Under the pieces are notes generated by a model that saw nothing but the letters and a program-made list of their open reading frames with translations, had not been told where the DNA came from and ran no database searches. A stretch of DNA of 20,659 bases. Source: Lachnospiraceae bacterium. GTDB lineage: Bacteria; Bacillota; Clostridia; Lachnospirales; Lachnospiraceae. Made by a program: the position numbers and the translations under genes. Shown piece by piece: positions 6,360 through 20,659 of the stretch; within the stretch, counting starts at the first letter, position 1, and the number at the start of each line of letters is the position of its first letter. The DNA lies in NCBI GenBank assembly GCA_024694785.1, contig JAILJL010000045.1, positions 1 through 20,659 on the forward strand, read 5' to 3'.

Positions 6360-7511
6360 TTATTCTTCTTCGGAATGATCATCGAAAGCAAAGGTTCTTG
6401 CATCAATTCCATTAACAGTAAGGTGTGAATCGACAGCAATGACAAGGCACTGCTGACCGTCAATTACTTTGGTGCGAAGTAAATCCGTACGTTCCGGGTT
6501 GACTCTTATGGATATGTCCGGAGTCTCTATCTTGAAACTTCGTTTATTGATAAGAGATGCTGCTGGGATCGTCTCGCCTTGCCCGATAGAGTCATTGAAT
6601 TTGTCATCAAATGAGGTCATTTTGTCTCCATCGGCGCCTGCATCGTAGAAAATCTGCTTTAATTCGTCTTTGGTAATCATAACAGGGTCGGGATTATCGG
6701 CATTCATATCGACAAGTTCCTTGATGTTATCATGTATGTTCTTGACAACTTCGAATTCGCAGGTCTCATTAAGAGTATCTTCAATAAGCGTGTTAAAATT
6801 GGCTTTCTGCTCAATTATGGTTCTTGCAGGCTCGGCGTGAAGCACCTTTTCTATGAATTCAGGATGCATTTCCTTGGCAGTTTTTGAATAGTACAATACA
6901 GAGTGAAGATCGGTATTTCTGTCATTAAATGCAGGGAACATAAAAGCTGTAAGCGGTGGTTCGACTACCCAGTCACGTATTCTGTCACGAATAAGATTCT
7001 CTTCAGCATCGTAGCTTAGGCCCCCTTTAGTTAAAGTAACGGGACAGATAAGCGCATTAAGATATGAGAATACATCTTCCGATGCGTCTTCAAGATCGAG
7101 TGAATCTTTGGTCTTGCCCGGAATGTCGTATTTGGAGTGAATCAATATAATATAGTAGTTCTGTCCGTATTCGTAAGACGCAATAATCTTGTCGAAGAAT
7201 TCGTCAATAAGGGCGTCGTCTTTTAATTCAGACTTGTTAAGATTATAAAGGAAATCCCATTCGCCGCCCGGATTCTCCGCGTCAACGGAAAATTCCATTG
7301 TGAAAAGATTGGTTCCGATGGAGCCGGAGAGTGATTTGCGGAATAAATCATAATACTTGTATTCTTCTTCTTTACTTAGACTTAAGAATGCTTCTTTCAT
7401 GCTGCATTTAATCTCTTTGTTGGCATCGACATAGCATGCTGCAATACGGCTTATGGCGCATCTGTCTTCGGTAAATTGCTTTTTAATCTCTGAAATTTCT
7501 TTTTTATTCAT
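6360..7511 (-). CDS. DUF4317 family protein
   Basis: A 383-residue protein that I recognise as DUF4317 from its N-terminus (MNKKEISEIKKQFTEDRC, then ISRIAACYVD), a signature seen in many Clostridia. It has no signal peptide, no membrane segment and no known catalytic motif. It is acidic, soluble and mixed alpha/beta, with a central segment (EPPLTAFMFPAFNDRNTDLH) typical of the family, and ends in an acidic tail (DDHSEEE). The role is unknown for the whole family. The start is firm: AAGGAAGG lies 6 bases before ATG 7511. It has its own promoter (7543-7571), is monocistronic, and runs convergent to the NAGPA operon and divergent from the GreA-like operon. The family call is recollection, not a search. 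Confidence 0.85.
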   Translation of the reverse strand: MNKKEISEIKKQFTEDRCAISRIAACYVDANKEIKCSMKEAFLSLSKEEEYKYYDLFRKSLSGSIGTNLFTMEFSVDAENPGGEWDFLYNLNKSELKDDALIDEFFDKIIASYEYGQNYYIILIHSKYDIPGKTKDSLDLEDASEDVFSYLNALICPVTLTKGGLSYDAEENLIRDRIRDWVVEPPLTAFMFPAFNDRNTDLHSVLYYSKTAKEMHPEFIEKVLHAEPARTIIEQKANFNTLIEDTLNETCEFEVVKNIHDNIKELVDMNADNPDPVMITKDELKQIFYDAGADGDKMTSFDDKFNDSIGQGETIPAASLINKRSFKIETPDISIRVNPERTDLLRTKVIDGQQCLVIAVDSHLTVNGIDARTFAFDDHSEEE

Positions 7512-7673: not shown

Positions 7674-8177
7674 ATGTTTGACGATCTTACAAAATCAGAT
7701 ATTGAGAATATCGAGAAAGAGATAGAGTATAGGAAGCTGGTTCTACGTAAGCAGCTTATTGCTGATGTACAGGAAGCAAGAGCCCAGGGCGATCTTTCCG
7801 AGAACTTTGAGTACTATGCCGCAAAAAAAGAAAAAAATGCTAATGAGAGCAGAATAAGGTATCTGGAGAATATTATCAGAACTGCCAATATTATAGAAGA
7901 TGAGACAACAATCGACGAGATAGGGCTTAATACCAATGTTACGGTATACCTTCCGGAGGATGATGCGGAAGAACATTACAGAATAGTTACGACAATAAGG
8001 GGAAATTCGTTAAAAGGGCTTATAAGTATCGACTCACCGCTTGGTAAGGCACTACTTAATCATAAAGTGGGGGATAAGGTTACAATTAAGGTTAACGATG
8101 ATTACAGCTATGATGTTGTAATTCGTGCAATCGATAAGGCACCGGATGATTCGGATGACGTTATCAGAAAGTTTTGA
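7674..8177 (+). CDS. GreA/GreB-family transcript cleavage factor (paralogue-like)
   Basis: A 167-residue GreA/GreB-type protein. These insert a coiled coil into the RNA polymerase secondary channel and stimulate cleavage of backtracked RNA. The N-terminal coiled coil is present with the conserved tip AQGDLSENFEYYAAKKEK; D40 and E43 match the two catalytic acidic residues of GreA (D41 and E44 in E. coli), so cleavage activity is plausible. The C-terminal FKBP-like domain shows the family's SPLGKALLNHKVGDKVTI stretch (about 124-141). The residues between are diverged from housekeeping GreA and the tail is acidic (DDSDDV), so this may be a second, specialised copy; the main greA would lie elsewhere. 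It is the first gene of an operon with two hybrid kinases and an asparaginase, and the next start lies 11 bases after its stop. Confidence 0.87.
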   Translation: MFDDLTKSDIENIEKEIEYRKLVLRKQLIADVQEARAQGDLSENFEYYAAKKEKNANESRIRYLENIIRTANIIEDETTIDEIGLNTNVTVYLPEDDAEEHYRIVTTIRGNSLKGLISIDSPLGKALLNHKVGDKVTIKVNDDYSYDVVIRAIDKAPDDSDDVIRKF

Positions 8178-8188
8178 GGTTGTACTCG

Positions 8189-10645
8189 ATGCGTAACGAA
8201 AAGAATAAGAGACAAATGTTACAGTTCAGAGAGAATGCGATTAATGAGCTTTTTGCTAAGCTTTTCTTTTACAGTCTCCCTGTCAGCCCTGTTATGTATA
8301 TATTGACACAATTGGGTATCTTTGAAATAGATAAGTATTATTGTATTCTTTTAAGTGTTTTTCTTGTATTCGCAGGCCTCGGCATGCACTTTCTTAACAG
8401 GTCGGAGAGGTTTTCGCGATATGCCAGGTATTTCGGCATTATTTCTCTTGAAATTATTATAGGATTTTCTGCGACAAGAGCAACGGTAGGTATATATATC
8501 GCCTATTCTTTTGCTGTATTTTTGAGCTGCCTGTATGTGAGTAATACGCTTACAATAGTTGTTAATATAACGAGCTATATTACGCTTCTTATATCTTTGT
8601 ATTTCAGAGGCATTGATCAGGTAAGGCATAATTATATAGTTGATACCGCTTTTGATTATTTTATCAAATATGCATTTGGTTATACACTTGAATGTATTCT
8701 GCTGTTTCTTATTTCCCTGACGGTTATAAGGTATGAGAAAATGCTTATTGAGGAAGTAAAAGGCGAGGAATCAAAACGTAAGAAAGCAGAGCTTGAGAAT
8801 AAGCAGAAAAGCGAATTCCTTGCTGAAATGTCCCATGAAATTAGAACACCTATTAATGCTGTAATGGGTATGAATGAGATGATTTTGAGAGAGACGTCGG
8901 ACAAGAGTATAACTGCGTATGCCAATACCATTAAATCCGCAGGCAAATCATTGCTTATGATAGTCAATGATATTCTTGATTTTTCCAAGATTCAGTCCGG
9001 CAAGCTTGAAATCGTCAATGAAGAATATGATACCTTCAATTCTTGGCTTGACACAATTAATCTCTATGGTTCGCAGGTAAGCGGTAAGGGACTTGATTTT
9101 GAAATACAGATATCGGAAACCATTCCTGAGAGACTTAAAGGTGATGAGTACAGAATTAAGCAGGTAGTGGGCAACCTCTTAAGTAACTCAATTAAATATA
9201 CTGAAAAAGGTTTTGTTAATTTAAGAGTCGACTTTGAATTTGATGAAAACGATGACACAAAGGGCGATATGGTGGTATCGGTTATCGATTCGGGTATAGG
9301 AATCAAATTTGATGATATACCTAAATTATTCAAGGATTACGGCAGAGTGGATATTGAAAAGAACCGCAAGATAGAGGGCACTGGTCTTGGTCTTAAGATA
9401 TGTAAGCAGCTTGTTGAGATGATGGATGGAGAGCTTACGGTTTCTTCAGTATACGGAGAGGGTTCTGTATTTTCCATAAGATTTCCGCAGACAGTTATCA
9501 GCAAGAATCCGATAGGATGCTTTGAAGAGAGATTTGTTGAAGATGATGCGAAGACCGAAAAGAATGAGAATAAGATAAGAGTTATTGCAAAAGACGCAGA
9601 TATTCTTATTGTTGATGATAATGATATGAATATTATGGTTGCCGAGAATCTCCTTAAGAAATGTGAGGCACGCATAGATTCGGTAATGTCGGGACTATTA
9701 TGCATAGAGGCGGTAGTGAAGAAACATTATGATATCATTTTCCTTGATCACATGATGCCCGATATGGACGGAATAGAAACATTACATAAGCTTAGAGAAG
9801 CTTATTCCGATTATGTTAAGGGCACTTCCATAGTGGTACTTACTGCTAATGCGATTAAGGGAGCAAAGGAGAAGTATCTTGAAGAAGGATTTGATGATTA
9901 TATCTCCAAACCGATATCAACGGAAGAGCTTGACAGAATATTAATGGAGAATCTTCCGGCCAACAAGGTATTTGTGGAGGATGGACCTGTTAAAGAGCAG
10001 ATTAATACGGATGGCGGATTCTCCGGTTACGCCAAGTATAATCTTGATATAGATAAAGCGCTTGAATTAATGGATGGTGAGATGGATATTTTCCTTGAGA
10101 TGGTCGATGTCTTTATCAAGGACAGACCGGGTAAGAGGGAGAAGATGGTTAATGCATTAAATGCGGGAGATATGTACAATTATGCAATTTTGGTACATGC
10201 TCTTAAGTCAAATGCACGAACCGTCGGAGCTTTTGTGCTTGGTAATATGGCTTATGCGGAAGAGCTTGAAAGCAAGGCGAATAATATAGCCTTTATAGAA
10301 GCTGATTATGAGGCGCTTTTTGCGGAATGGGATAAAGCAGTTGCAGGCATGGAAGCATTGATTAATGAACGAGGCGGGAGCGAATCTGAAGAAGAACCTG
10401 CGGGCGAGCTTAAGCTTATGGAGAGAGACGAGTATGAGGAAAAGCTCCTTATTGCAATGGCCTGTATAGAGGAATTTCAGCAGGAACAGGCAATGGAGAT
10501 TTTACAGGATATAAAGAATCATCTGGTGCCGGACAGTCTTACGGAATGTGTAGACACAACGCTCAAACTGCTTGATGATTTCATGTATGATGAGGCAAAA
10601 GACATTATTAAGGATTATCTTACCGGTGAGAATGCCGGAATATAG
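8189..10645 (+). CDS. Membrane hybrid histidine kinase (HisKA-HATPase-REC-HPt), kinase 1
   Basis: An 818-residue hybrid sensor kinase. The N-terminal 190 residues form about six hydrophobic membrane segments with no large outside domain, so the signal is probably sensed in or near the membrane. A short charged coiled segment leads to HisKA (EMSHEIRTPINA, H216), then the ATPase domain (N-box NLLSNSIKYTEKG with N333, IDSGIGI, GTGLGL). Next comes a receiver (IVDDND, D520 in FLDHMMPDMDG, then SKP) and an HPt domain (VHALKSNARTVGA, H670). A helical tail of about 75 residues (741-818) follows, shared with kinase 2. All relay residues needed for His-Asp-His transfer are present, but there is no DNA-binding or enzymatic output. 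The start is ATG 8189 after GAGG; the frame opens earlier at TTG 8174, overlapping the previous stop. It ends one base-pair register from the asparaginase leader. Confidence 0.92.
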   Translation: MRNEKNKRQMLQFRENAINELFAKLFFYSLPVSPVMYILTQLGIFEIDKYYCILLSVFLVFAGLGMHFLNRSERFSRYARYFGIISLEIIIGFSATRATVGIYIAYSFAVFLSCLYVSNTLTIVVNITSYITLLISLYFRGIDQVRHNYIVDTAFDYFIKYAFGYTLECILLFLISLTVIRYEKMLIEEVKGEESKRKKAELENKQKSEFLAEMSHEIRTPINAVMGMNEMILRETSDKSITAYANTIKSAGKSLLMIVNDILDFSKIQSGKLEIVNEEYDTFNSWLDTINLYGSQVSGKGLDFEIQISETIPERLKGDEYRIKQVVGNLLSNSIKYTEKGFVNLRVDFEFDENDDTKGDMVVSVIDSGIGIKFDDIPKLFKDYGRVDIEKNRKIEGTGLGLKICKQLVEMMDGELTVSSVYGEGSVFSIRFPQTVISKNPIGCFEERFVEDDAKTEKNENKIRVIAKDADILIVDDNDMNIMVAENLLKKCEARIDSVMSGLLCIEAVVKKHYDIIFLDHMMPDMDGIETLHKLREAYSDYVKGTSIVVLTANAIKGAKEKYLEEGFDDYISKPISTEELDRILMENLPANKVFVEDGPVKEQINTDGGFSGYAKYNLDIDKALELMDGEMDIFLEMVDVFIKDRPGKREKMVNALNAGDMYNYAILVHALKSNARTVGAFVLGNMAYAEELESKANNIAFIEADYEALFAEWDKAVAGMEALINERGGSESEEEPAGELKLMERDEYEEKLLIAMACIEEFQQEQAMEILQDIKNHLVPDSLTECVDTTLKLLDDFMYDEAKDIIKDYLTGENAGI

Positions 10646-11697: not shown

Positions 11698-14187
11698 ATG
11701 GTACGAGAGAACAGATCGGATTTCTTTCGAATGATAGCCAAGAAAAACGCTGAGAATGCAGCAAAGTTGTACGGTGTACTTTCCGCCGTAGAATTATTTA
11801 TGCTCATTTTGCAGCATTTTACCGATAAATTGTTCGGAACCGGCAAGCATGTATTTAAGATGATGTACATAATCATTCTTATATATTCGTTTACTTCCGC
11901 GATGGTACTTAACTACCTTAAGAAGAAGGCGGATAAGAATTATGTTATTATCAATAACTTAATTGCGGTTATGGGTATCATTACAATCGGATGGACCGAA
12001 CTTATGGCTTATCTTGATTTTGTGTATCTTGGTACCTTTGATTTTACATTATTTGTGGCAATCTCGGTCGCCTTCCTTATGTTCCTTATAGTGCAGTATT
12101 ATGCGCTTTATGTGATCGTTCTTCTTAACGGCGTTACAATGGCGTGCATGAGTTTCTATATTTCCTTAGCGACCGGAAGAACAATGGCACCGACGGTTAA
12201 TCTCATTCTTTTCCTGCTTATTGCGACTTCGGGTACTATTGCAAAGTACAGGATTGCAATGTCAGACTTCGATAAGCAGAGCGTTATTATGAAGCGTAAT
12301 AGTGAGCTTTTTGAAGCTAATGAGAGAATACTTAATATGAAGGATTCGGCAGAGGCTGCAAGTGTGGCCAAAAGCCAGTTTCTTGCTAATATGTCGCATG
12401 AAATCCGTACTCCTATCAACGCGATTCTTGGTATGGATGAAATGATTCTAAGAGAGAGCGATAATGAGGAAATAAGTAATTACGCCGCAAATATCCAGAG
12501 CTCGGGAAGGAATCTTCTTCAGCTTATTAATGATATTCTCGACATTTCGAAGATTGAATCGGGCAAGCTTGAAATCGTTCCGGTTAACTACGATTTGGCG
12601 GAACTTATCAGTGTCATAGTAAATGAAATGAAGGCAAGGGCAAATGATAAGGCGATTGAAGTTAATTTCGAGGTATCGCCGACGATGCCTTACAAATATT
12701 TCGGTGATTCGGTAAGAATCAAGCAGATAATTACGAACATTATGACGAATGGTATCAAATATACCGAGAAGGGAAGCGTTACCCTTTATGTTAATGGCAT
12801 TGAAGCCGGCGGTAATTATCTTATAATGATTTCCGTAATCGATACGGGTATCGGTATTAAGCCGGAAGATATGGAGAATTTATTCGAGAAGTTTACGCGA
12901 CTTGACCTTGAGAAGAACAGAACAATTGAGGGTACGGGACTTGGACTTGCGATTACCAAACAGCTTGTTGATGTAATGGGTGGAACAATAGATGTTCAGT
13001 CGGTATATGGACAGGGAACTAACTTCGCGGTTACAATTCCGCAGACCGTTGTTGACACCGAGCCGATTGGCGACTTCAGGGAACGCTATCAGCAGTCGGT
13101 TCTTGAAAGAGAGAAGTATAAAGAAAGCTTCATTGCGCCGGAGGCACATATCCTTGTTGTAGACGATAATGATATGAATATTCAGGTTATAAGAAGTCTT
13201 CTTAAAAAGACTGAAGTCATGCTTGATGAAGCGTCTTCGGGTAAGGTAGCGCTTTCTCTTACGTCGAAGAATAAATACGATTTAATTCTTATGGATCATC
13301 TTATGCCGATTATGGATGGTATAGAGACTTTCCATCATGTCAGAAATGATGATGATTCAATTAACAAGGATACACCTGTCATAATTCTTACCGCAAATGC
13401 GGTATCGGGTGCCAAAGAAGAGTATCTTAACGAGGGATTTGCGGGATATCTGTCGAAGCCTATCGACGGCAGGACACTTGAAACCACAATTATCCGGTTC
13501 CTTCCGGAAGACAGGTATACTTACATTAAGGAAGACATAATGGTAGAAAAGCTCGCGGACCATGAACTTCGTGACGAACTTTCAAGCAAGCTTATGAATG
13601 CGGAGATCGATCTTGAGACCGGCCTTAGATACCTTGACTACAATCTTGATAATTATTTCGATATGGCCGATATCTACGTTAAAACCGCGGACAAGTTGGC
13701 ACCTTCCCTTGATGAGTATGTTACAAATAACGATTGTGATAACTTTAGGATCAAGATTCACGCAATCAAGAGCAGTTCCAAGAATATTGGTGCGGTCAGA
13801 CTTTCGGATGATGCACAGAGGCTTGAGACTGCTGCAAAGAATATGGATATCGACAAGATTAATACCAACTGGCCGTTATTCAAGAAATTCTGGTTCGATG
13901 TTGTAGAAGCACTTCGCGAGATAAGACCTGATAAGGTGGAGAATGTCATTGCGGAAGAAGATAAGATTGAGGACAGAAATGCGGTATACGGACTTGTAAG
14001 TGAAATGAAGATAGCACTTGTTGACTACGAGCTTGATACTGCGGAAGATATAGCGGAGAAGCTTAAGGGATATAAGCTTACCGAAGAAGAGAGCAAGTTG
14101 ATTAACAATGCGACCATTTCAATGGGTGAATTTAATTACGATGAAGCGGTAGATTATCTTAACGCATTTCTTGAAGCAATGAGATAG
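11698..14187 (+). CDS. Membrane hybrid histidine kinase (HisKA-HATPase-REC-HPt), kinase 2
   Basis: An 829-residue paralogue of kinase 1 with the same domain order. About six membrane segments (20-195) are joined by a coiled linker to HisKA (NMSHEIRTPINA, H234). The ATPase domain follows (NIMTNGIKYTEKG, IDTGIGI, GTGLGL). The receiver has VVDDND, D533 in LMDHLMPIMDG, then SKP. The HPt domain (IHAIKSSSKNIGA) carries H688. The last 70 residues form a helical module ending in FNYDEAVDYLNAFL, matching FMYDEAKDIIKDYL at the end of kinase 1. The membrane parts of the two differ much more than the catalytic parts, so they may sense different signals. No output domain or response regulator is encoded nearby. 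The start is firm: AGGAG overlaps the asparaginase stop and lies 6 bases before the ATG. A strong terminator follows. Confidence 0.93.
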   Translation: MVRENRSDFFRMIAKKNAENAAKLYGVLSAVELFMLILQHFTDKLFGTGKHVFKMMYIIILIYSFTSAMVLNYLKKKADKNYVIINNLIAVMGIITIGWTELMAYLDFVYLGTFDFTLFVAISVAFLMFLIVQYYALYVIVLLNGVTMACMSFYISLATGRTMAPTVNLILFLLIATSGTIAKYRIAMSDFDKQSVIMKRNSELFEANERILNMKDSAEAASVAKSQFLANMSHEIRTPINAILGMDEMILRESDNEEISNYAANIQSSGRNLLQLINDILDISKIESGKLEIVPVNYDLAELISVIVNEMKARANDKAIEVNFEVSPTMPYKYFGDSVRIKQIITNIMTNGIKYTEKGSVTLYVNGIEAGGNYLIMISVIDTGIGIKPEDMENLFEKFTRLDLEKNRTIEGTGLGLAITKQLVDVMGGTIDVQSVYGQGTNFAVTIPQTVVDTEPIGDFRERYQQSVLEREKYKESFIAPEAHILVVDDNDMNIQVIRSLLKKTEVMLDEASSGKVALSLTSKNKYDLILMDHLMPIMDGIETFHHVRNDDDSINKDTPVIILTANAVSGAKEEYLNEGFAGYLSKPIDGRTLETTIIRFLPEDRYTYIKEDIMVEKLADHELRDELSSKLMNAEIDLETGLRYLDYNLDNYFDMADIYVKTADKLAPSLDEYVTNNDCDNFRIKIHAIKSSSKNIGAVRLSDDAQRLETAAKNMDIDKINTNWPLFKKFWFDVVEALREIRPDKVENVIAEEDKIEDRNAVYGLVSEMKIALVDYELDTAEDIAEKLKGYKLTEEESKLINNATISMGEFNYDEAVDYLNAFLEAMR

Positions 14188-14227: not shown

Positions 14228-15319
14228 TTATGCATTTAATAAAAGACTGATGAGCTTATCGTTGTCTTCGCGGTTCATGAAGCAGAATCTTATGTAGCGA
14301 TCGCTTAAGAACGGGAAGGAGTCGCAGTTTCTTATCATGAAATTGTTACGGATGGCAAGTTCGAATAAGCTTCCGGCATCGAGCTTTTCATCAAGGATCT
14401 TTAACAGGATGAAGTTGGCATCTGCCGTGTAAGCCTTATATTTATCTGATTTTGCAAAGATCTCGTAGATTCTTCTTTGCTCTTCGTGCATGAATTCTTT
14501 TGTTCTCTTGATATAATCCGTATCTTTGTACATTACGGTTCCCGCAAATGCGGCAATTGAGTTAACGGACCAAGGATTCTGCTCGGAACGGATTTTATTA
14601 AGCAATGCTTCATTCTTCGTTATTGCATATCCGAGACGAAGTCCCGGGGATGCGAAAAACTTGGACACGCCGCGAAGTACGATAAAATTATCGAAGCGTT
14701 CTGTTAAAGGCGCTGCAATCGCAAATTTTTCGTGTTCGGAGAATTCCATATATGTCTCGTCTATCATTATGAAGGTGTTAAAGTCTTTGCATAACTGCAT
14801 AATTAAAGAGAGCACATCCTGTGTGATGATTCCCGATGTAGGATTATTGGGATTGCATATTACAAGCATATCATAATGTGTGCTCTGTAATTCCGTGAAT
14901 AGGCTTTCGATATTAAGGCGGAAGTCCTCGGATTCCTTTAATTCAAAGTAGGTTATATCACCGCCGGATAAGCCTATTTCATGGCCATATTCCGAATATG
15001 TCGGACCTACGATAAGAGCTTTCTTAGGATGAATAAACTGAGCCATAAGGCTTATAAGTTCTGTGGAACCGTTGCCGACCGTAATGTATTGAGGATTACA
15101 TGAGCAGTACTCGCCGATTGCCTTTCTTAGTTCGGTATAATTCCTGTCAGGATACGTCTCGATTACATTGACATTCTTTGCAAGTTCTTCCTTCATAAGA
15201 GGAGAGATGCCAAACGGATTGACATTGGCTGCAAAGTTGATAATGTCTTCTTTTTTGATGCCGAATTCTTTCTCTATAAGTTCAAGGTCACTGCCATGAA
15301 ATGCTTTCTTTTTTTCCAT
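14228..15319 (-). CDS. PLP-dependent class I/II aminotransferase-fold enzyme, CobD/HisC-like
   Basis: A 363-residue fold-type I PLP enzyme. The N-terminal HGSDLELIEKEFG and then INFAANVNPFGIS closely resemble threonine-phosphate decarboxylase (CobD), which opens with HGG and 'DFSANINPLG', and less closely histidinol-phosphate aminotransferase. Other landmarks are YPDRNYTELR, VGNGSTELI (phosphate contact), NPNNPTSG, IDETYMEF (Asp that contacts the PLP ring nitrogen), and RGVSKFFASPGLRLGYA with K220 as the Schiff-base lysine. The C-terminal RFCFMNREDN segment fits the substrate-carboxylate Arg. CobD makes aminopropanol phosphate for the cobalamin side chain, but no cobalamin gene lies near, so decarboxylase and transaminase remain open. 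The start has AGGGTG 7 bases upstream. It is monocistronic and divergent from the large operon. Confidence 0.85.
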   Translation of the reverse strand: MEKKKAFHGSDLELIEKEFGIKKEDIINFAANVNPFGISPLMKEELAKNVNVIETYPDRNYTELRKAIGEYCSCNPQYITVGNGSTELISLMAQFIHPKKALIVGPTYSEYGHEIGLSGGDITYFELKESEDFRLNIESLFTELQSTHYDMLVICNPNNPTSGIITQDVLSLIMQLCKDFNTFIMIDETYMEFSEHEKFAIAAPLTERFDNFIVLRGVSKFFASPGLRLGYAITKNEALLNKIRSEQNPWSVNSIAAFAGTVMYKDTDYIKRTKEFMHEEQRRIYEIFAKSDKYKAYTADANFILLKILDEKLDAGSLFELAIRNNFMIRNCDSFPFLSDRYIRFCFMNREDNDKLISLLLNA

Positions 15320-15350
15320 TATATATCACCCTGCCAATCCCCCTAAATTG

Positions 15351-15379
15351 TTGCATGAAGGGGTTAATTTGTATATAAT
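15351..15379 (+). promoter_or_regulatory. Candidate promoter of the large-protein operon
   Basis: TTGCAT (15351-15356), a 17-base spacer and a perfect TATAAT (15374-15379), about 105 bases before the start at 15484. The -35 is only a half match. Just downstream lies a tandem 8-base repeat, ATTATAGG twice (15381-15396), which also forms the -10 of the opposite promoter. Confidence 0.5.
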
Positions 15380-15388
15380 TATTATAGG

Positions 15389-15418
15389 ATTATAGGTGTT
15401 ATTATGCCTATATGTCCA
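15389..15418 (-). promoter_or_regulatory. Candidate promoter of the aminotransferase gene
   Basis: On the minus strand TGGACA (15418-15413, 5 of 6 consensus), an 18-base spacer and TATAAT (15394-15389), 70 bases before the start. A second candidate lies upstream: TTGATT (15452-15447), 16 bases, TATAAT (15430-15425). The first overlaps the plus-strand promoter region, so the two directions may compete. Confidence 0.5.
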
Positions 15419-15483
15419 TTAACCATTATAGCAATTAATGCTGAAAAATCAATGGTTCAAAATGATGTGAGACAGGTACGGAT

Positions 15484-18400
15484 ATGAGAAGAAGAATGCA
15501 GGATTTATCTGCAGGCGTATTTGAATATGAAGGCCCGAGGATTAAGCTCTCGGAAGACAGATTATTGTTATCCGCGACGGAAGGTGAGAATCTTAAGGGC
15601 TCTTTTAAGATAGAGAGCACCAATGGTGTACCTATGCGTGGAATCGTATATTCCGATAATCCGCGTATGGATCTGCTTAATGCACAGTTTTCGGGAGTTG
15701 TTGCCACAATTGAATACCAGTTTCATACCGACGGACTTATAAGAGGTGATATTCAAAAGGGTGATTTCTATATCATTCTTAATAAAAACGAATATAACCT
15801 TCCTTTTGTTGTAGAGACAAAGAAAGCCTTATTTAAAATAGGCGATATGGTCATAGATTCCCTCGACAGCTTTCTGGAAGCTGCCAAGAAGGATGAGCAT
15901 TCAGCTTTTTCTTTTTTTGCATCTCCGATGTTTAATTCTGTGCTTGATAAGGAGAATCAGAAGGTTAACCTGTCGTCAAGACTGCTTTCTTATGAGGGAA
16001 CGACTCTTCATAATATGGAGGAGTTACTTACGCTTCTCGGGCTTAAGGACGAGATGGTACTTACCACGGATTTTGACGATCTGTATTATGAGAATCCGAC
16101 AGAGAATATAAGGGAAATCATTGAGATAAGCAAGTCTTCTTATGGATTTGCCGAAGTGGATGTAAGAACGGACGCGCCGTTTATCGTTTTACCCCGCGGG
16201 CATTTTTATAACGAAGACTTTATCGGGTCTGTTTTACAGATACCGTTTTTCCTTGATATATCGCATTTACATGCGGGTATGAATTACGGAAGAATTAAGA
16301 TTAATTCGGGAAGATATGAATTCTCTTTTAATATAATTGCTCATGTCAAGTCGAATCGTGACAGTGAGCGCAAAGCGCTTATCGAGAGGCAGGAGACACT
16401 TTTTAATATCTTTAAAACCTATATAGACTACAGAGTCGGAAGAATAATGACTGCTTCCTTCTCTTCCAATATGCTTATTATCCTGGATCATGCTATTTCC
16501 ATATTCCCGGAGACCATGCTTTTGTGGCTTTTTAAGGCGCAGGTATTTTGTGTAAGCAATAGACAGAAAGAAGCACAGTGGGTGTTAGAGCAGTATAAGA
16601 ATGATTTCTTAAGTGCACCCTCCGATATATATGGATATTACCTTTATGTAACGACTTTTCTTAACAGGGAACCGTCATATATTAGGAAAGTTGCGGATAA
16701 GATAAAAGCGCTCTATAAGGAGTCTGAAAGGGATGAGCTTTTATTCTATTGTCTGTTGTTTCTTGATGAATCGTATAAGGACTCACCTCTTAGAAAGTAC
16801 AGGGCAATAAAGGAGCGTGTACTTAAGGGTTCGACAAGTCCGCTTTTACTTGCGGAAGCTTATCATATCTTAAAGGATAACGTGTCTGTACTTGAAGAAG
16901 TAGGAACTTTTGAAGTGAGACTCTTTAATTTTATTAAGAAGCACGGGCTTATGCAAAAAGAGATGATTCTTATGCTGTCGGATATGATATCCTTTGAGAA
17001 TCTGTACAATAAGTCCCTTATTCCGGTACTTATCGAAGGTTTTGACAGATATGACAGTGACAGAATCCTTATTGCGTTATGTAAGATGCTTATAAGGAAA
17101 GAGCATTACGACCGTAAGGCCAATACGTATTATCTGCTGGCGATTGAACGGGAGCTTAATATTCCGGGATTATTCGAGGCATATATTATGTCTGCATCGA
17201 ATAATTCAAGAGAAGCATATCCTAAGATGGTATCTTATTATTTCCAGTTTAAGACAAGTCTGCCTTATAAGCATAAGGCAATTGTCTATGCGGGAATTAT
17301 CAACAACCGCGAGAAACAGATGTCTATATATCTTAAGTGCAAGCCTGAGATAGAAGAGTTCGCGGTAGAACAGATATATGCAGGGCATCTTGATGAGAAT
17401 CTTGCCATTATATATGAGCATTATCTTAAGGAAGTTACCATAACCCACGAGCTTTCAAGAGCGTTGTCGCCACTTCTTTATATACATAAGCTGATCATAT
17501 TCGATAAGCCGTATCTTAAGCGTGTTATATGTATTCACAGGCAGACCAATAAAGAGATGTCATATCCGATAATTGACGGTGTGGCGTATCTTCCGATATA
17601 TTCCAAAGAGCATCTTATTGCGTTCGAGGACGGATTCGGGAATCGATATATATACGGGGTTGATTATGATCTGCAGATTCTGATAAGGGCTGAGGCTTTG
17701 ACCAAGAAGTGCCTTAAGGTAGCGCCTGAGCAGATGCCGTACCTTATTCATTACATTGATTCGATATGGAAAGTCGACAGCGAGCAGATGGACTTTACCG
17801 ATAACGATCTTAGTTATCTTAATATATTGCTTTCATCCAATGTGATAACGGATGATTATAAGCACATGCTGCGTCCGCAGATCATTGATTTCTATTACAG
17901 AACGGAAAGAATAGAGCTGCTTGACGAGTATCTTAAGTCGCTTGATTTCGAGGGTCTTGACGAACAGCTAAGAATACTGGCATCAGAGCTTCTGGTAACA
18001 AGAGGCTTCTATGACAAGGCATTTGATGTGATAGTGCGGTACGGATGCAATCAGATAGCGCCTTCGTTAATGCTGATTTTGTGTTCCAATATTATAATTG
18101 CGCGTAATTACGAGGCGGATGATTACCTTATCGGATTATGTGCAAATGCATTCTCAAGAGGCAAGTATAACGAGGTTGTGCTTACATATCTGTGTAAATA
18201 TATGTATGGTTCCACAGATAAACTGTACGACTTATGGATTGCTGCAACGGAATATGAGATTAATACGTTCGAACTTGCGGAGCGTCTCTTGGTTCAAATG
18301 ATATATTCTGAAGTATATATTCCGAAGAACGAGGATATCTTAAGAAGCTATATAGAGCAGGGCGGTAAGAAGCTTGTACTTGATGCATATCTTTCCTATC

Positions 18401-19044
18401 ATGCATATAAGTATTTTGTAAAAGAATCGATGTACAACAAGCTTACCATGACGCAGCTTACCGAGATGTACGAGCATAAGATGAAACTCAATACCTGCGA
18501 GAAGTTTGCACTTCTTAAGTATCTTACTGAGACAGGAGCGGATAAGCGGGATATAATTAAGGAATTATATGAAGAGTTTGCACTTAAGGGATATAATTTC
18601 GCTTTCTTTAATGATATACCGCGGGAAATTACCGAGGAATTACCTCGTGACGGCAAGAAGATCCTTGAATACAGGACGGTTCCGGGTAGTCAGGTATATA
18701 TAAGATACAGGGTCCTTCGCGGCCATGATGATGAAGACGTTGCCTTTATCAAAGAGCAGATGACCGAGATGTATGAGGGAATATTTGTTAAAGAGTTTAC
18801 TCTGTTTTACGGGGATTCTGTTCAGTATTACATAAGCGAGAGCAGTGACTACCAGGTAGAGATCAAAGAAAGCGGAGAGATTTCCAATATGGATATCAAG
18901 CCGCTTAAGGAAAGCACGAGATTCGAGATATTGAACGATTTGATTATATCGGAGCAGTTAGGCGAATTGTCTCTTTATGAGAGTAAGAAGGATCGTTATG
19001 ATTCTTTACTGAAGGAAGCGGCAGAGTGCCTTAAGAGGAAGTAA
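15484..19044 (+). CDS. Very large DUF5717-type protein, helical repeat scaffold
   Basis: An unrecognised 1186-residue protein that I believe belongs to the Lachnospiraceae family DUF5717; the name is recalled, not searched. It has no signal peptide, membrane segment or catalytic motif. Residues 1-115 and about 215-290 are beta-rich with Ig-like strand patterns (KGSFKIES, GDFYIILNKNEYNLPF, GRYEFSFNIIAHV). From about 300 to 1070 it is almost entirely helical, with irregular Leu/Tyr-rich helix pairs like TPR or Sel1 repeats but no exact consensus. Residues about 1075-1145 turn beta again (VPGSQVYIRYRVL, EFTLFYGDSVQYYI), followed by a Lys-rich helix. This suggests a cytoplasmic scaffold that binds proteins. 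ATG 15484 has only a weak AGG upstream; ATG 15496 is an alternative. The stop is one base from the next gene's ATG, so the two products are probably made together and may bind each other. Confidence 0.85.
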   Translation: MRRRMQDLSAGVFEYEGPRIKLSEDRLLLSATEGENLKGSFKIESTNGVPMRGIVYSDNPRMDLLNAQFSGVVATIEYQFHTDGLIRGDIQKGDFYIILNKNEYNLPFVVETKKALFKIGDMVIDSLDSFLEAAKKDEHSAFSFFASPMFNSVLDKENQKVNLSSRLLSYEGTTLHNMEELLTLLGLKDEMVLTTDFDDLYYENPTENIREIIEISKSSYGFAEVDVRTDAPFIVLPRGHFYNEDFIGSVLQIPFFLDISHLHAGMNYGRIKINSGRYEFSFNIIAHVKSNRDSERKALIERQETLFNIFKTYIDYRVGRIMTASFSSNMLIILDHAISIFPETMLLWLFKAQVFCVSNRQKEAQWVLEQYKNDFLSAPSDIYGYYLYVTTFLNREPSYIRKVADKIKALYKESERDELLFYCLLFLDESYKDSPLRKYRAIKERVLKGSTSPLLLAEAYHILKDNVSVLEEVGTFEVRLFNFIKKHGLMQKEMILMLSDMISFENLYNKSLIPVLIEGFDRYDSDRILIALCKMLIRKEHYDRKANTYYLLAIERELNIPGLFEAYIMSASNNSREAYPKMVSYYFQFKTSLPYKHKAIVYAGIINNREKQMSIYLKCKPEIEEFAVEQIYAGHLDENLAIIYEHYLKEVTITHELSRALSPLLYIHKLIIFDKPYLKRVICIHRQTNKEMSYPIIDGVAYLPIYSKEHLIAFEDGFGNRYIYGVDYDLQILIRAEALTKKCLKVAPEQMPYLIHYIDSIWKVDSEQMDFTDNDLSYLNILLSSNVITDDYKHMLRPQIIDFYYRTERIELLDEYLKSLDFEGLDEQLRILASELLVTRGFYDKAFDVIVRYGCNQIAPSLMLILCSNIIIARNYEADDYLIGLCANAFSRGKYNEVVLTYLCKYMYGSTDKLYDLWIAATEYEINTFELAERLLVQMIYSEVYIPKNEDILRSYIEQGGKKLVLDAYLSYHAYKYFVKESMYNKLTMTQLTEMYEHKMKLNTCEKFALLKYLTETGADKRDIIKELYEEFALKGYNFAFFNDIPREITEELPRDGKKILEYRTVPGSQVYIRYRVLRGHDDEDVAFIKEQMTEMYEGIFVKEFTLFYGDSVQYYISESSDYQVEIKESGEISNMDIKPLKESTRFEILNDLIISEQLGELSLYESKKDRYDSLLKEAAECLKRK

Positions 19045-19045
19045 T

Positions 19046-20332
19046 ATGGATGAGATTACATACTTCGGACTGGATCTGTCCGAGTATTACAGCCAAATAA
19101 GTTATTTCAGAGATTCGATGGAAGAACCTGTGTCTATAAGTACGCATCCGGGAACCGAAGAATTCCTGATTCCAACGGTTATCGGCAAGAAGACAGGGAT
19201 TGCGCAATGGTTCATCGGTGATGATGCATTAAAGCTTAATAATCCGATAAGCGGCATATTAAGCAAGGCCTTCAGGAAAGAGAAGATTGTCGTGGAGGAT
19301 GAGGAATACGAGGCTACAGAGCTTTTATCCTTATATATTCGCAAAGTTTTTGCTATGACAGCTGTGGCTTCCTGCGATAAGGCGAGGGATTATTTCATAA
19401 TCTGCGTAGATCATGCGACACAGATGCAGACCGAGACGTTACTTACGATAACGGATTCGTTGTCGATTCCGCGTGAACACGTTAAAATATGCTCGAAGCA
19501 GGAATGCTTTTGCTATTATGCGATGAACCGGGAGCCTTCGCTTACGCTTCACGATTCTTTGCTTATGGATTATTGGCATAATTCCTTCAGATTATACGTG
19601 TTATCCAAGGATACAAGGCTTACACCGACGGTTGTAAAGGTCTCGGAATTGCAGTTTCCGGCGCTCAATCACATGTCGGATAACTTAAATATGAGCGACG
19701 AAGAGATGGCAGTCCATAAGGATGATGTATTCTTAAAAGCGCTTGATGATATACTCGGTGAGAGAATAACGTCGTCGGTATATCTTGTAGGTGACGGATT
19801 TGACGGCGGGTGGATGAACAGATCAAAAAGCAGATTATGTGCCGGAAGAAGGGTCTTCTTCGGTATGAATCTATATACCAAGGGCGCATGTTATTATGGT
19901 CAGATTATAAGACGTAAGTTCAAGAATCAGCCGGAGTACCTTTATCTTGGCGGAAGCAATATGTTATATAATATCTGTCTTAAAGCATACGACAAGGAAG
20001 AATTCCGTATGAAGACATTGATATCTGCCGGATATAACTATCAGGATGCGTATGGGGCCATGGATCTTATTGCAATGCCTGATGATGAGCCGGAGATTAC
20101 GTTCTATTGTAAGCCGATTAAAGGCGGAGAGGGTACGGAGTATACGTTTCCGTTAAAAGGACTTGTCGCAACGGATAATCTTACTACCAGATTAAGAGTA
20201 TTCGGTAAAGCTACAAGTCCGGACAGAATTCTTATTAACATTAAGACAATGCCTTTTGGTGAGATGGAAAGGGAACCCGGATTATCCTGGGAATATGAAA
20301 TAATGCCGGGGAAGAACGAAAGCGAAGTATAA
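19046..20332 (+). CDS. Hsp70/actin-fold-like protein, degenerate (DUF5716-type)
   Basis: A 428-residue protein, I believe of family DUF5716 (recalled). Several segments line up in order with the Hsp70/actin ATPase fold. FGLDLSEYYSQISYF (6-20) resembles phosphate-1 (Hsp70 GIDLGTTxS). IPTVIG follows, then YFIICVDHAT in the place of the 'AVITVPA' strand. LLMDYWHNSFRLYVL (D175) sits where phosphate-2 DxGGGT should be. SVYLVGDGFDGGWM (G249-G251) resembles the adenosine motif. Phosphate-2 keeps the Asp but lacks the glycines, so ATP hydrolysis may be weak or lost. The last third (from about 300) is beta-rich, like a substrate-binding or accessory domain. There is no signal peptide. GAGGAA before the ATG and the 1-base gap from the previous stop indicate translational coupling. 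The fold call rests on motif order alone. Confidence 0.8.
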   Translation: MDEITYFGLDLSEYYSQISYFRDSMEEPVSISTHPGTEEFLIPTVIGKKTGIAQWFIGDDALKLNNPISGILSKAFRKEKIVVEDEEYEATELLSLYIRKVFAMTAVASCDKARDYFIICVDHATQMQTETLLTITDSLSIPREHVKICSKQECFCYYAMNREPSLTLHDSLLMDYWHNSFRLYVLSKDTRLTPTVVKVSELQFPALNHMSDNLNMSDEEMAVHKDDVFLKALDDILGERITSSVYLVGDGFDGGWMNRSKSRLCAGRRVFFGMNLYTKGACYYGQIIRRKFKNQPEYLYLGGSNMLYNICLKAYDKEEFRMKTLISAGYNYQDAYGAMDLIAMPDDEPEITFYCKPIKGGEGTEYTFPLKGLVATDNLTTRLRVFGKATSPDRILINIKTMPFGEMEREPGLSWEYEIMPGKNESEV

Positions 20333-20376
20333 TAATATTGCATAATAATTTAATTTAGATTAAAGAAGGGAGCAAA

Positions 20377-20659
20377 ATGTCGAAATTCATATATTGTCCG
20401 ATTGCGATGTCGGATAGTCCGTATCATGTGAAAAGTCTGGATTATAACTTTTACTCCTTGGAAGAGCTTTTCAGTTATTACAGGAAGAATAGAATTCTTA
20501 TTGATAACAGTATTATGGAGCAGGATTTCGTCTTCTGGATAAGACAGCAGGGAGAAGGGCTGCTGGCAGAGAAGCTTACGCAGATCCTGAAGGGAAAGGG
20601 CACGCTTATTATGTATATAGAAGCGCTTTTACCCTATATCAATACTTTTTCCGAAGACG
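20377..20659 (+). CDS. Unrecognised protein, third gene of the operon (partial, runs off right edge)
   Basis: An open frame continues to the window edge from ATG 20377, preceded by AAGGGAG at 5 bases, giving 94 residues. It begins MSKFIYCPIAMSDSPYHVKS and continues with aromatic-rich text (YNFYSLEELFSYYRKNR). No signal peptide, membrane segment or known motif is seen; the visible part looks soluble and mostly helical after the first strand. It lies 44 bases after the Hsp70-like gene, on the same strand with no terminator between, so it probably belongs to the same operon. That spacer is AT-rich and holds no convincing promoter. Function unknown. Confidence 0.75.
   Translation, partial: MSKFIYCPIAMSDSPYHVKSLDYNFYSLEELFSYYRKNRILIDNSIMEQDFVFWIRQQGEGLLAEKLTQILKGKGTLIMYIEALLPYINTFSED

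Follow-up and report, generated by a model that had tools for sequence, protein, structure and literature searches.

Contig JAILJL010000045.1 of a Lachnospiraceae bacterium (assembly GCA_024694785.1), analyzed here at its full 20,659 nt and called the window, ends in an operon encoding a giant DUF5717 protein (D17), a DUF5716 protein (D16) and a TPR protein. Profile comparisons and motif counts indicate that D16 is a decayed Hsp70 paralog, closest to Hsp70-C, one of three Hsp70s encoded by a larger operon in other families of the same order, here called sister families. We give an even chance to the reading that the locus is a remnant of an order-level machine with multiple Hsp70s, and that it would now specify an ATP-independent complex of scaffold, pseudo-Hsp70 and TPR adaptor. 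D17 and D16 are true genes and not chance open reading frames (ORFs), because both have strong Pfam matches and homologs in many genomes. The window is the whole contig of a metagenome-assembled genome (MAG) with a completeness of 69%, and the third gene is incomplete for this reason.

The window's D16 matches DUF5716_C (PF18980) with an E value of 5e-70 and 236.2 bits against a cut-off of 34.7, and this is its sole Pfam match. It gave no match to HSP70 (PF00012) at E<=1 or to the MreB, FtsA and ParM families, its hydropathy profile has no membrane segment, and a sequence search of PDB returned a weak match only, to DnaK (2v7y, E 0.1). In sister families, the D16 of locus L079 (our handles are L for loci and G for genomes) has a match to HSP70 (E 3e-22) alongside that to DUF5716_C (E 6e-23). 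We used an alignment of 49 D16 rows, window included, for profile comparison; it matched sister D16 at E 6e-54 and Hsp70-C at E 2e-23 along 402 columns, a homology that spans the nucleotide-binding and substrate-binding parts. Hsp70-A (6e-8), DnaK (7e-6) and the Hsp70-vWA fusion (8e-6) followed, with six unrelated profiles at E 0.058 or worse. The sister D16 profile in turn matched Hsp70-C at 6e-75 and DnaK at 6e-24, and in an Hsp70 tree the family D16 proteins group with sister D16, the nearest being that of L087 in genome G152. An earlier note, made from the letters of this DNA, had described D16 as Hsp70/actin-like; a degenerate Hsp70 relative it is, nearest to Hsp70-C, while no cytoskeletal actin was matched.

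The two phosphate-binding motifs GTTN/H (phosphate-1) and GGGT (phosphate-2) separate D16 from its relatives. Neither was found in 20 family D16 proteins (a set without the fused protein of L069), in 18 sister D16 proteins or in the 49 aligned rows, which share the window's protein with the family set. Both are kept in 19/19 Hsp70-A, 18/18 Hsp70-C and 16/16 full-length Hsp70-vWA proteins, with Hsp70 fragments, including a 19th Hsp70-C, left out of the counts, and in 20/20 DnaK proteins from a set chosen by similarity. Sister D16 is a recognizable Hsp70 with decayed phosphate-binding motifs, and in family D16 the motifs are gone. A DxG[FY]G-type motif, judged by aligned columns, is present in 11/18 Hsp70-C, 16/18 sister D16 and 19/20 family D16 proteins; it is absent from all 20 DnaK proteins, which mostly have DLGTG at that place, all 19 Hsp70-A and all 16 Hsp70-vWA proteins. 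In two genomes, G114 (L268) and G130 (L269), D16 reaches 519 residues through an insert of roughly 100, and D17 is larger, at 1284 residues.

The larger operon was read from 20 neighborhoods of the order outside the family, 19 of which have the locus; the other, L091, came from an under-cut-off match and does not. Its gene order is D17N, D17C, Hsp70-A, GrpE fusion, D16, Hsp70-C, Hsp70-vWA, TPR. The proteins measure 554-581 residues for Hsp70-A, 564-644 for the GrpE fusion (279 in L087), 457-565 for D16, 539-572 for Hsp70-C and mostly 691-725 for Hsp70-vWA. All genes from Hsp70-A through TPR are present in 18/19 loci, some ends being visible only in extended loci; the contig of L082 ends after Hsp70-A. 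There are extra ORFs or wide gaps within the operon in L083, L084 and L089, no separate D17N in L085 and L086, and a fused D17 in L072 and L077. Pfam searches on L079 found HSP70 in Hsp70-A, Hsp70-C and Hsp70-vWA and placed GrpE (E 5e-11) at the fusion protein's end, with no DnaJ family among the matches listed for the operon proteins. In Hsp70-vWA (e.g., L079:16843-18915), the beta substrate-binding part is followed by a vWA domain at the place expected for the lid, and the DTTGS of this domain, presumably a motif of the metal-ion-dependent adhesion site (MIDAS) type, is invariant in 12/12 aligned proteins. Compared with L079, nine sister loci have 54-95% identity for the three Hsp70s and 20-84% for D17, D16, TPR and the GrpE fusion, and the Hsp70s are the most conserved proteins in each locus compared.

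We used the substrate/vWA part of Hsp70-vWA to scan a single genome of each species; with the best 80 of 128 relatives kept, this gave 79 loci. The only one outside Clostridia, L226 (Planctomycetia), was rejected since it encodes a 342-residue vWA protein that is not an Hsp70. Carriers include Defluviitalea phaphyphila Alg1, Petrocella sp. FN5, Candidatus Epulonipiscium MAGs, a Vallitaleaceae MAG and many Defluviitaleaceae or uncultured Clostridia. D16 accompanies Hsp70-vWA, always in the same order, in 45 of the other 78 loci, and 29 extend to D17C; 33 have no visible D16, and in 19 of these fewer than 6 kb lie upstream of Hsp70-vWA. Parts spread out with other DNA between them, or a D16 away from Hsp70-vWA, were seen in some Defluviitaleaceae MAGs (L156, L160, L172, L203, L225 and others), and L213 has an additional Hsp70-like gene downstream. 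A search for the GrpE fusion in 240 genomes of the class returned nine matches, all to its C-terminal part in frames of 173-235 residues; as all lie in such short frames, there is no GrpE fusion in this class sample, whose eight family genomes, the window's own included, gave no match to it.

In the 20 family loci that we read, no Hsp70-A, Hsp70-C, Hsp70-vWA or GrpE fusion stands beside D17. Searching 10 family genomes for HSP70 found a full-length DnaK in all, with a second one elsewhere in G043 and G149; in the window's own, incomplete MAG, the search gave two matches in frames of 334 and 339 residues. In a quick RpoB tree of 30 genomes, eight of them from the family, G152 (family f4), which has the large operon, is sister to the eight (Shimodaira-Hasegawa-like approximate likelihood ratio test, SH-aLRT, 99), and therefore a remnant after loss is the best reading of the small locus. 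In the simplest reading of these sequences, Hsp70-A, the GrpE fusion, Hsp70-C and Hsp70-vWA would have been lost toward Lachnospiraceae, and D17N and D17C would have fused. The operon of G152 (L087) itself has its short GrpE protein and an Hsp70-vWA and TPR that are split into several ORFs; these apparently broken genes would represent either decay in progress or an assembly error.

In D17, residues 1-876 match DUF5717_N (PF18984; E 2e-228, 760.9 bits) and residues 879-1172 DUF5717 (PF18983; E 9e-81, 271.8 bits), each against a cut-off of 25. Its N-terminal part of about 290 residues corresponds to the separate gene D17N in 15/19 sister-family loci and the remainder to D17C, and the family D17 profile matches these at E 6e-40 and E 1e-80, respectively. 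D17C proteins have a TPR_19 match in 5/15 cases, and their profile weakly resembles the operon's TPR family (probability 84%). D17N appears beta-rich by eye, and the BACON/Ig-like family PF19190 weakly matches one of 14 sister D17N proteins (E 0.0025) and none of the other 13. Hydropathy indicates no strong membrane segment in D17 and one weak one (1.62, residues 855-873), and a PDB sequence search gave a weak match only, to the TPR protein PA4667 (E 0.22). We infer that D17 is a large helical scaffold. No known enzymatic motif was found in D17 or D16, in agreement with what had been noted before.

Complete relatives of the third gene are TPR proteins, of 242-301 residues where a separate gene was read, so that the gene which the earlier note had placed in the same operon as an unknown keeps its place and gains an identity. 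That note had also expected the operon to run on past the window, and in relatives it does: TPR is often followed by c4, a membrane coiled-coil protein, directly after TPR in 9/20 family loci. Among seven genomes from the window's genus, its own being one of them, five others were read around the locus, and c4 follows TPR in all five. Among 13 distinct c4 proteins, hydropathy gives two hydrophobic helices in nine and one in four, between long arms that look like coiled coil by eye; no Pfam family matches c4 at a score above its cut-off. Because the following gene encodes a membrane protein in these loci, the proposal of a cytoplasmic complex may be incomplete. Five genomes (G043, G067, G126, G025 and G071, with D16 frames longer than 650 residues) have a D16-TPR fusion; for the fixed-ratio complex suggested in the earlier note, these fusions support association, not stoichiometry. 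A 670-residue open frame in G502, of the same genus, was rejected as a fusion, being two genes.

The pair is nearly universal in the family. DUF5717_N occurs in 147 of 150 sampled family genomes (123 of 125 good ones), mostly as a single match, and DUF5716_C in 145 of the same 150. Among the matches listed, D16 lies directly downstream of D17 within 3 kb in 137 of the 141 genomes with both, and in the remaining four the genes are on different contigs, which agrees with the tight, conserved operon proposed earlier. The refutation that the earlier note had named first, a pair not kept across genomes, is thereby contradicted. D17, D16 and TPR were found in all 20 family neighborhoods read, D16 and TPR as one ORF in L069. 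In the order sample, DUF5717_N matched 62/116 genomes; 11 of these are family members, counting the own genome, and another one falls under the cut-off. In the class sample it matched 10/245, made up of nine family members, again counting the own genome, and G374, which is under the cut-off. Homologs mostly carry the source name Lachnospiraceae bacterium, and Herbinix, Clostridium sp. and Roseburia also occur; these names bear out the assignment to Lachnospiraceae. Across 36 pairs from nine family genomes, DnaK has a median identity of 84.7%, D17 of 26.9% and D16 of 30.0%, and TPR has 30.0% across 28 pairs; D17 distances track DnaK distances (Spearman 0.77, over pairs that are not independent). 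Near-universal presence together with low identity makes this a core yet fast-changing gene set.

We hypothesize that D17 would serve as the scaffold for D16, which would hold clients or act as an adaptor subunit without the use of ATP. The TPR protein would dock partners, among them perhaps a client or the ordinary DnaK of the cell. In loci that have c4, this protein would tether the complex to the membrane on its cytoplasmic face. Such a complex would be a fixed adaptor or a platform for assembly and not a cycling chaperone.

A number of observations count against this interpretation. Client holding by D16 is a guess from its ancestry, and loss of the motifs is no proof of lost nucleotide binding. 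The DxGFG-type motif is strict in 35 of the 49 aligned rows, and the window's own D16 has TMPFG; in the Hsp70 tree, D16 proteins have long branches, for which the program issues a warning of long-branch effects. The operon showed no J-domain protein, which is odd for an Hsp70 machine, and in 14/78 loci D16 is not near Hsp70-vWA despite at least 6 kb of upstream sequence, so the operon is split or rearranged in some lineages. The case for loss over gain depends largely on a single genome next to the family, the MAG G152. The next branch of the RpoB tree, G170, has no DUF5717 match and is followed by f22 genomes with and without one, and the large-operon label requires six changes on this tree, where it was assigned to G155 and G156 from DUF5717 matches alone and to G153 from a locus cut after Hsp70-A. 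Within the family, G029 and G091 have neither gene, and G098, G128 and G146 have D17 with no D16 match. G020 (67% complete; L270) has a D16 of 409 residues without D17 on a 163-kb contig, where the six other ORFs in 10 kb around it match no D17, TPR or c4 model. Lastly, the rest of the 20 family loci lack c4 after TPR.

As to known systems, the Pfam DUF families to which D17 and D16 clearly belong are names without function, and their one-line descriptions are silent on Hsp70 and the larger operon. NCBIfam gave no match for D17, D16 or the third gene. In the open-licence PubMed Central literature, we found no mention of DUF5717, only work unrelated by title for DUF5716 and, by title and abstract, nothing on the system or on pseudo-Hsp70s save one analogue. 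The earlier description of the system as undescribed thus holds for that literature, although both proteins were already Pfam families. The sister operons resemble the Hsp70/GrpE machinery (DnaK, HscA) in having three motif-intact Hsp70s and a GrpE fusion, and D16 is related to it by descent. They differ from it in combining several paralogs and a scaffold in each operon, one paralog with a vWA domain, with no J-domain protein seen; the family loci read keep no motif-intact operon Hsp70. The nearest described analogue is in Kaur et al. 2020. The excerpts considered describe a GAP1-N2 HSP70/GrpE theme with an HSP70, GrpE, a second HSP70-domain protein and an FNIII-repeat protein that is fused to TPR or DnaJ; Firmicutes are among the groups in which it occurs (PMC7159879). 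An HSP70, GrpE and a second HSP70-domain protein also make up the likeness in the sister operons, which may have a counterpart of the repeat protein too, given TPR_19 in 5/15 D17C proteins and a hint of an Ig-like nature in D17N. Unlike that theme, the genes studied here are near-universal and syntenic in the family, where HSP70 and GrpE are absent from 20/20 loci, and the Hsp70-vWA fusion is not mentioned in those excerpts (PMC7159879).

This likeness raises the possibility of a domesticated conflict module, defense-like and akin to the GTPase-centered GAP1-N2 systems, in which the fast change of D17, D16 and TPR would reflect an arms race. The parts list is shared with theme 2 of that source, as far as its excerpts go, and the three proteins have median identities of 27-30% against 85% for DnaK. 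However, neither a DO-GTPase nor GAP1 is among the operon genes of L079 by Pfam, and elsewhere gene order reveals no conserved extra operon gene, the outside neighbors being partly annotated. PADLOC, run on nine proteins, returned no family for D17 or D16 at E<=0.001; its matches were of PDC-M61B to L079 Hsp70-C (E 5e-10) and Hsp70-vWA (3e-6), over part of the Hsp70. The genes are also near-universal, mostly single-match and adjacent, and D17 tracks DnaK distances, unlike mobile defense islands. We find a conflict module quite improbable.

An apparatus for cell shape, with D16 as an FtsA-like actin-fold adaptor on a membrane scaffold of D17 and c4, would draw on the fact that the Hsp70 nucleotide domain has an actin fold, on the Hsp70 relatives of D16 and on the resemblance of c4 to a membrane coiled-coil protein. 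With the nucleotide motifs of D16 lost, filament cycling is unlikely; the window's D16 matches no MreB, FtsA or ParM, and the D16 profile instead aligns with Hsp70-C over its 402 columns. We hold this cytoskeletal role to be improbable as well. Less easily set aside, though we still judge it unlikely, is a role as co-chaperone, in which D16, D17 and TPR would bring the housekeeping DnaK to a site or client, with D16 being Hsp110-like or substituting for GrpE after loss of the dedicated one. TPR proteins are frequent partners of Hsp70, DnaK is full-length in 10/10 family genomes, and all 20 family loci lack the operon Hsp70s and the GrpE fusion. However, neither a J-domain nor a domain for nucleotide exchange turned up in D17, D16 or TPR, and D16 has lost its motifs, whereas Hsp110 proteins bind ATP.

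The operon's layout in the window is given in Table 1. The coupling of D17 to D16 noted earlier is borne out: the D17 stop codon TAA occupies 19042-19044 and the D16 ATG begins at 19046, a genuine 1-base gap. In 20 relatives, the spacing ranges from -14 to +88 bases (-14 to +23 in 19 of them) with start codons as picked by the ORF caller, and the exact 1-base gap is specific to the window's genome. Upstream of D17, no plus-strand sigma-70-like site lies in 15320-15483 among the sites listed. Heat-shock control by HrcA through CIRCE (controlling inverted repeat of chaperone expression) was rejected, as no element was found upstream of the first gene: within 300 bases, the best of 39 regions has 7/18 mismatches, which is background level. 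The scan is able to detect the element (at most two mismatches in 11/276 loci), and in the CIRCE-bearing system loci L053, L082, L173 and L195, no recognized operon gene lies within 1.7 kb of it.

Table 1. Operon features in the window.
Feature	Position	Strand	Basis or remark
Gap of 164 bases between divergent CobD-like gene and D17	15320-15483		Presumed home of the operon promoter
D17, DUF5717 protein, 1186 residues	15484-19044	+	ORF and Pfam
Ribosome-binding-site-like AAGAGGAAG for D16, within D17 3′ end	19033-19041	+	By eye
D16, DUF5716 protein, 428 residues, probable pseudo-Hsp70	19046-20332	+	ORF, Pfam and profile comparison
Ribosome-binding-site-like AAAGAAGGGAG ahead of TPR gene ATG	20362-20372	+	By eye
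Third gene, N-terminal 94 residues of TPR protein, cut at contig end	20377-20659	+	ORF and relatives

Divergent from D17 stands a CobD-like aminotransferase gene (14228-15319, minus strand; TIGR01140, 274.5 bits, below the cut-off of 290.55). A relative is divergent beside D17 in 9/20 family loci, in 11/19 sister-family loci (with a small ORF between in some) and in 4/4 same-genus loci that reach that far. Farther upstream, 8174-10645 and 11698-14187 (plus strand) encode two related proteins, hybrid histidine kinases by eye, with an asparaginase-like gene, also by eye, between them; in G499 of the same genus, a kinase with HATPase_c, Response_reg and Hpt is also near the locus. At 6360-7511 (minus strand) is a protein of the function-less family DUF4317 (E 3e-142).

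These genes, for which we found no published function, are carried by almost all genomes sampled from a dominant gut family, and this marks a real gap. We speculate, at somewhat less than an even chance, that an order-specific machine for one client or assembly, with three active Hsp70s, of which one has a vWA domain replacing the lid, its own GrpE and a pseudo-Hsp70 on a giant scaffold, was reduced in Lachnospiraceae to a core pseudo-chaperone complex free of ATP. If true, an entire gut family would rely on a "dead" Hsp70. The series from motif-intact Hsp70s through decaying to motif-free ones beside a scaffold would be a natural experiment in turning a chaperone into a structural adaptor, and our analysis supplies testable partners and organisms for it, including Defluviitalea phaphyphila Alg1 as a named strain with the large operon.

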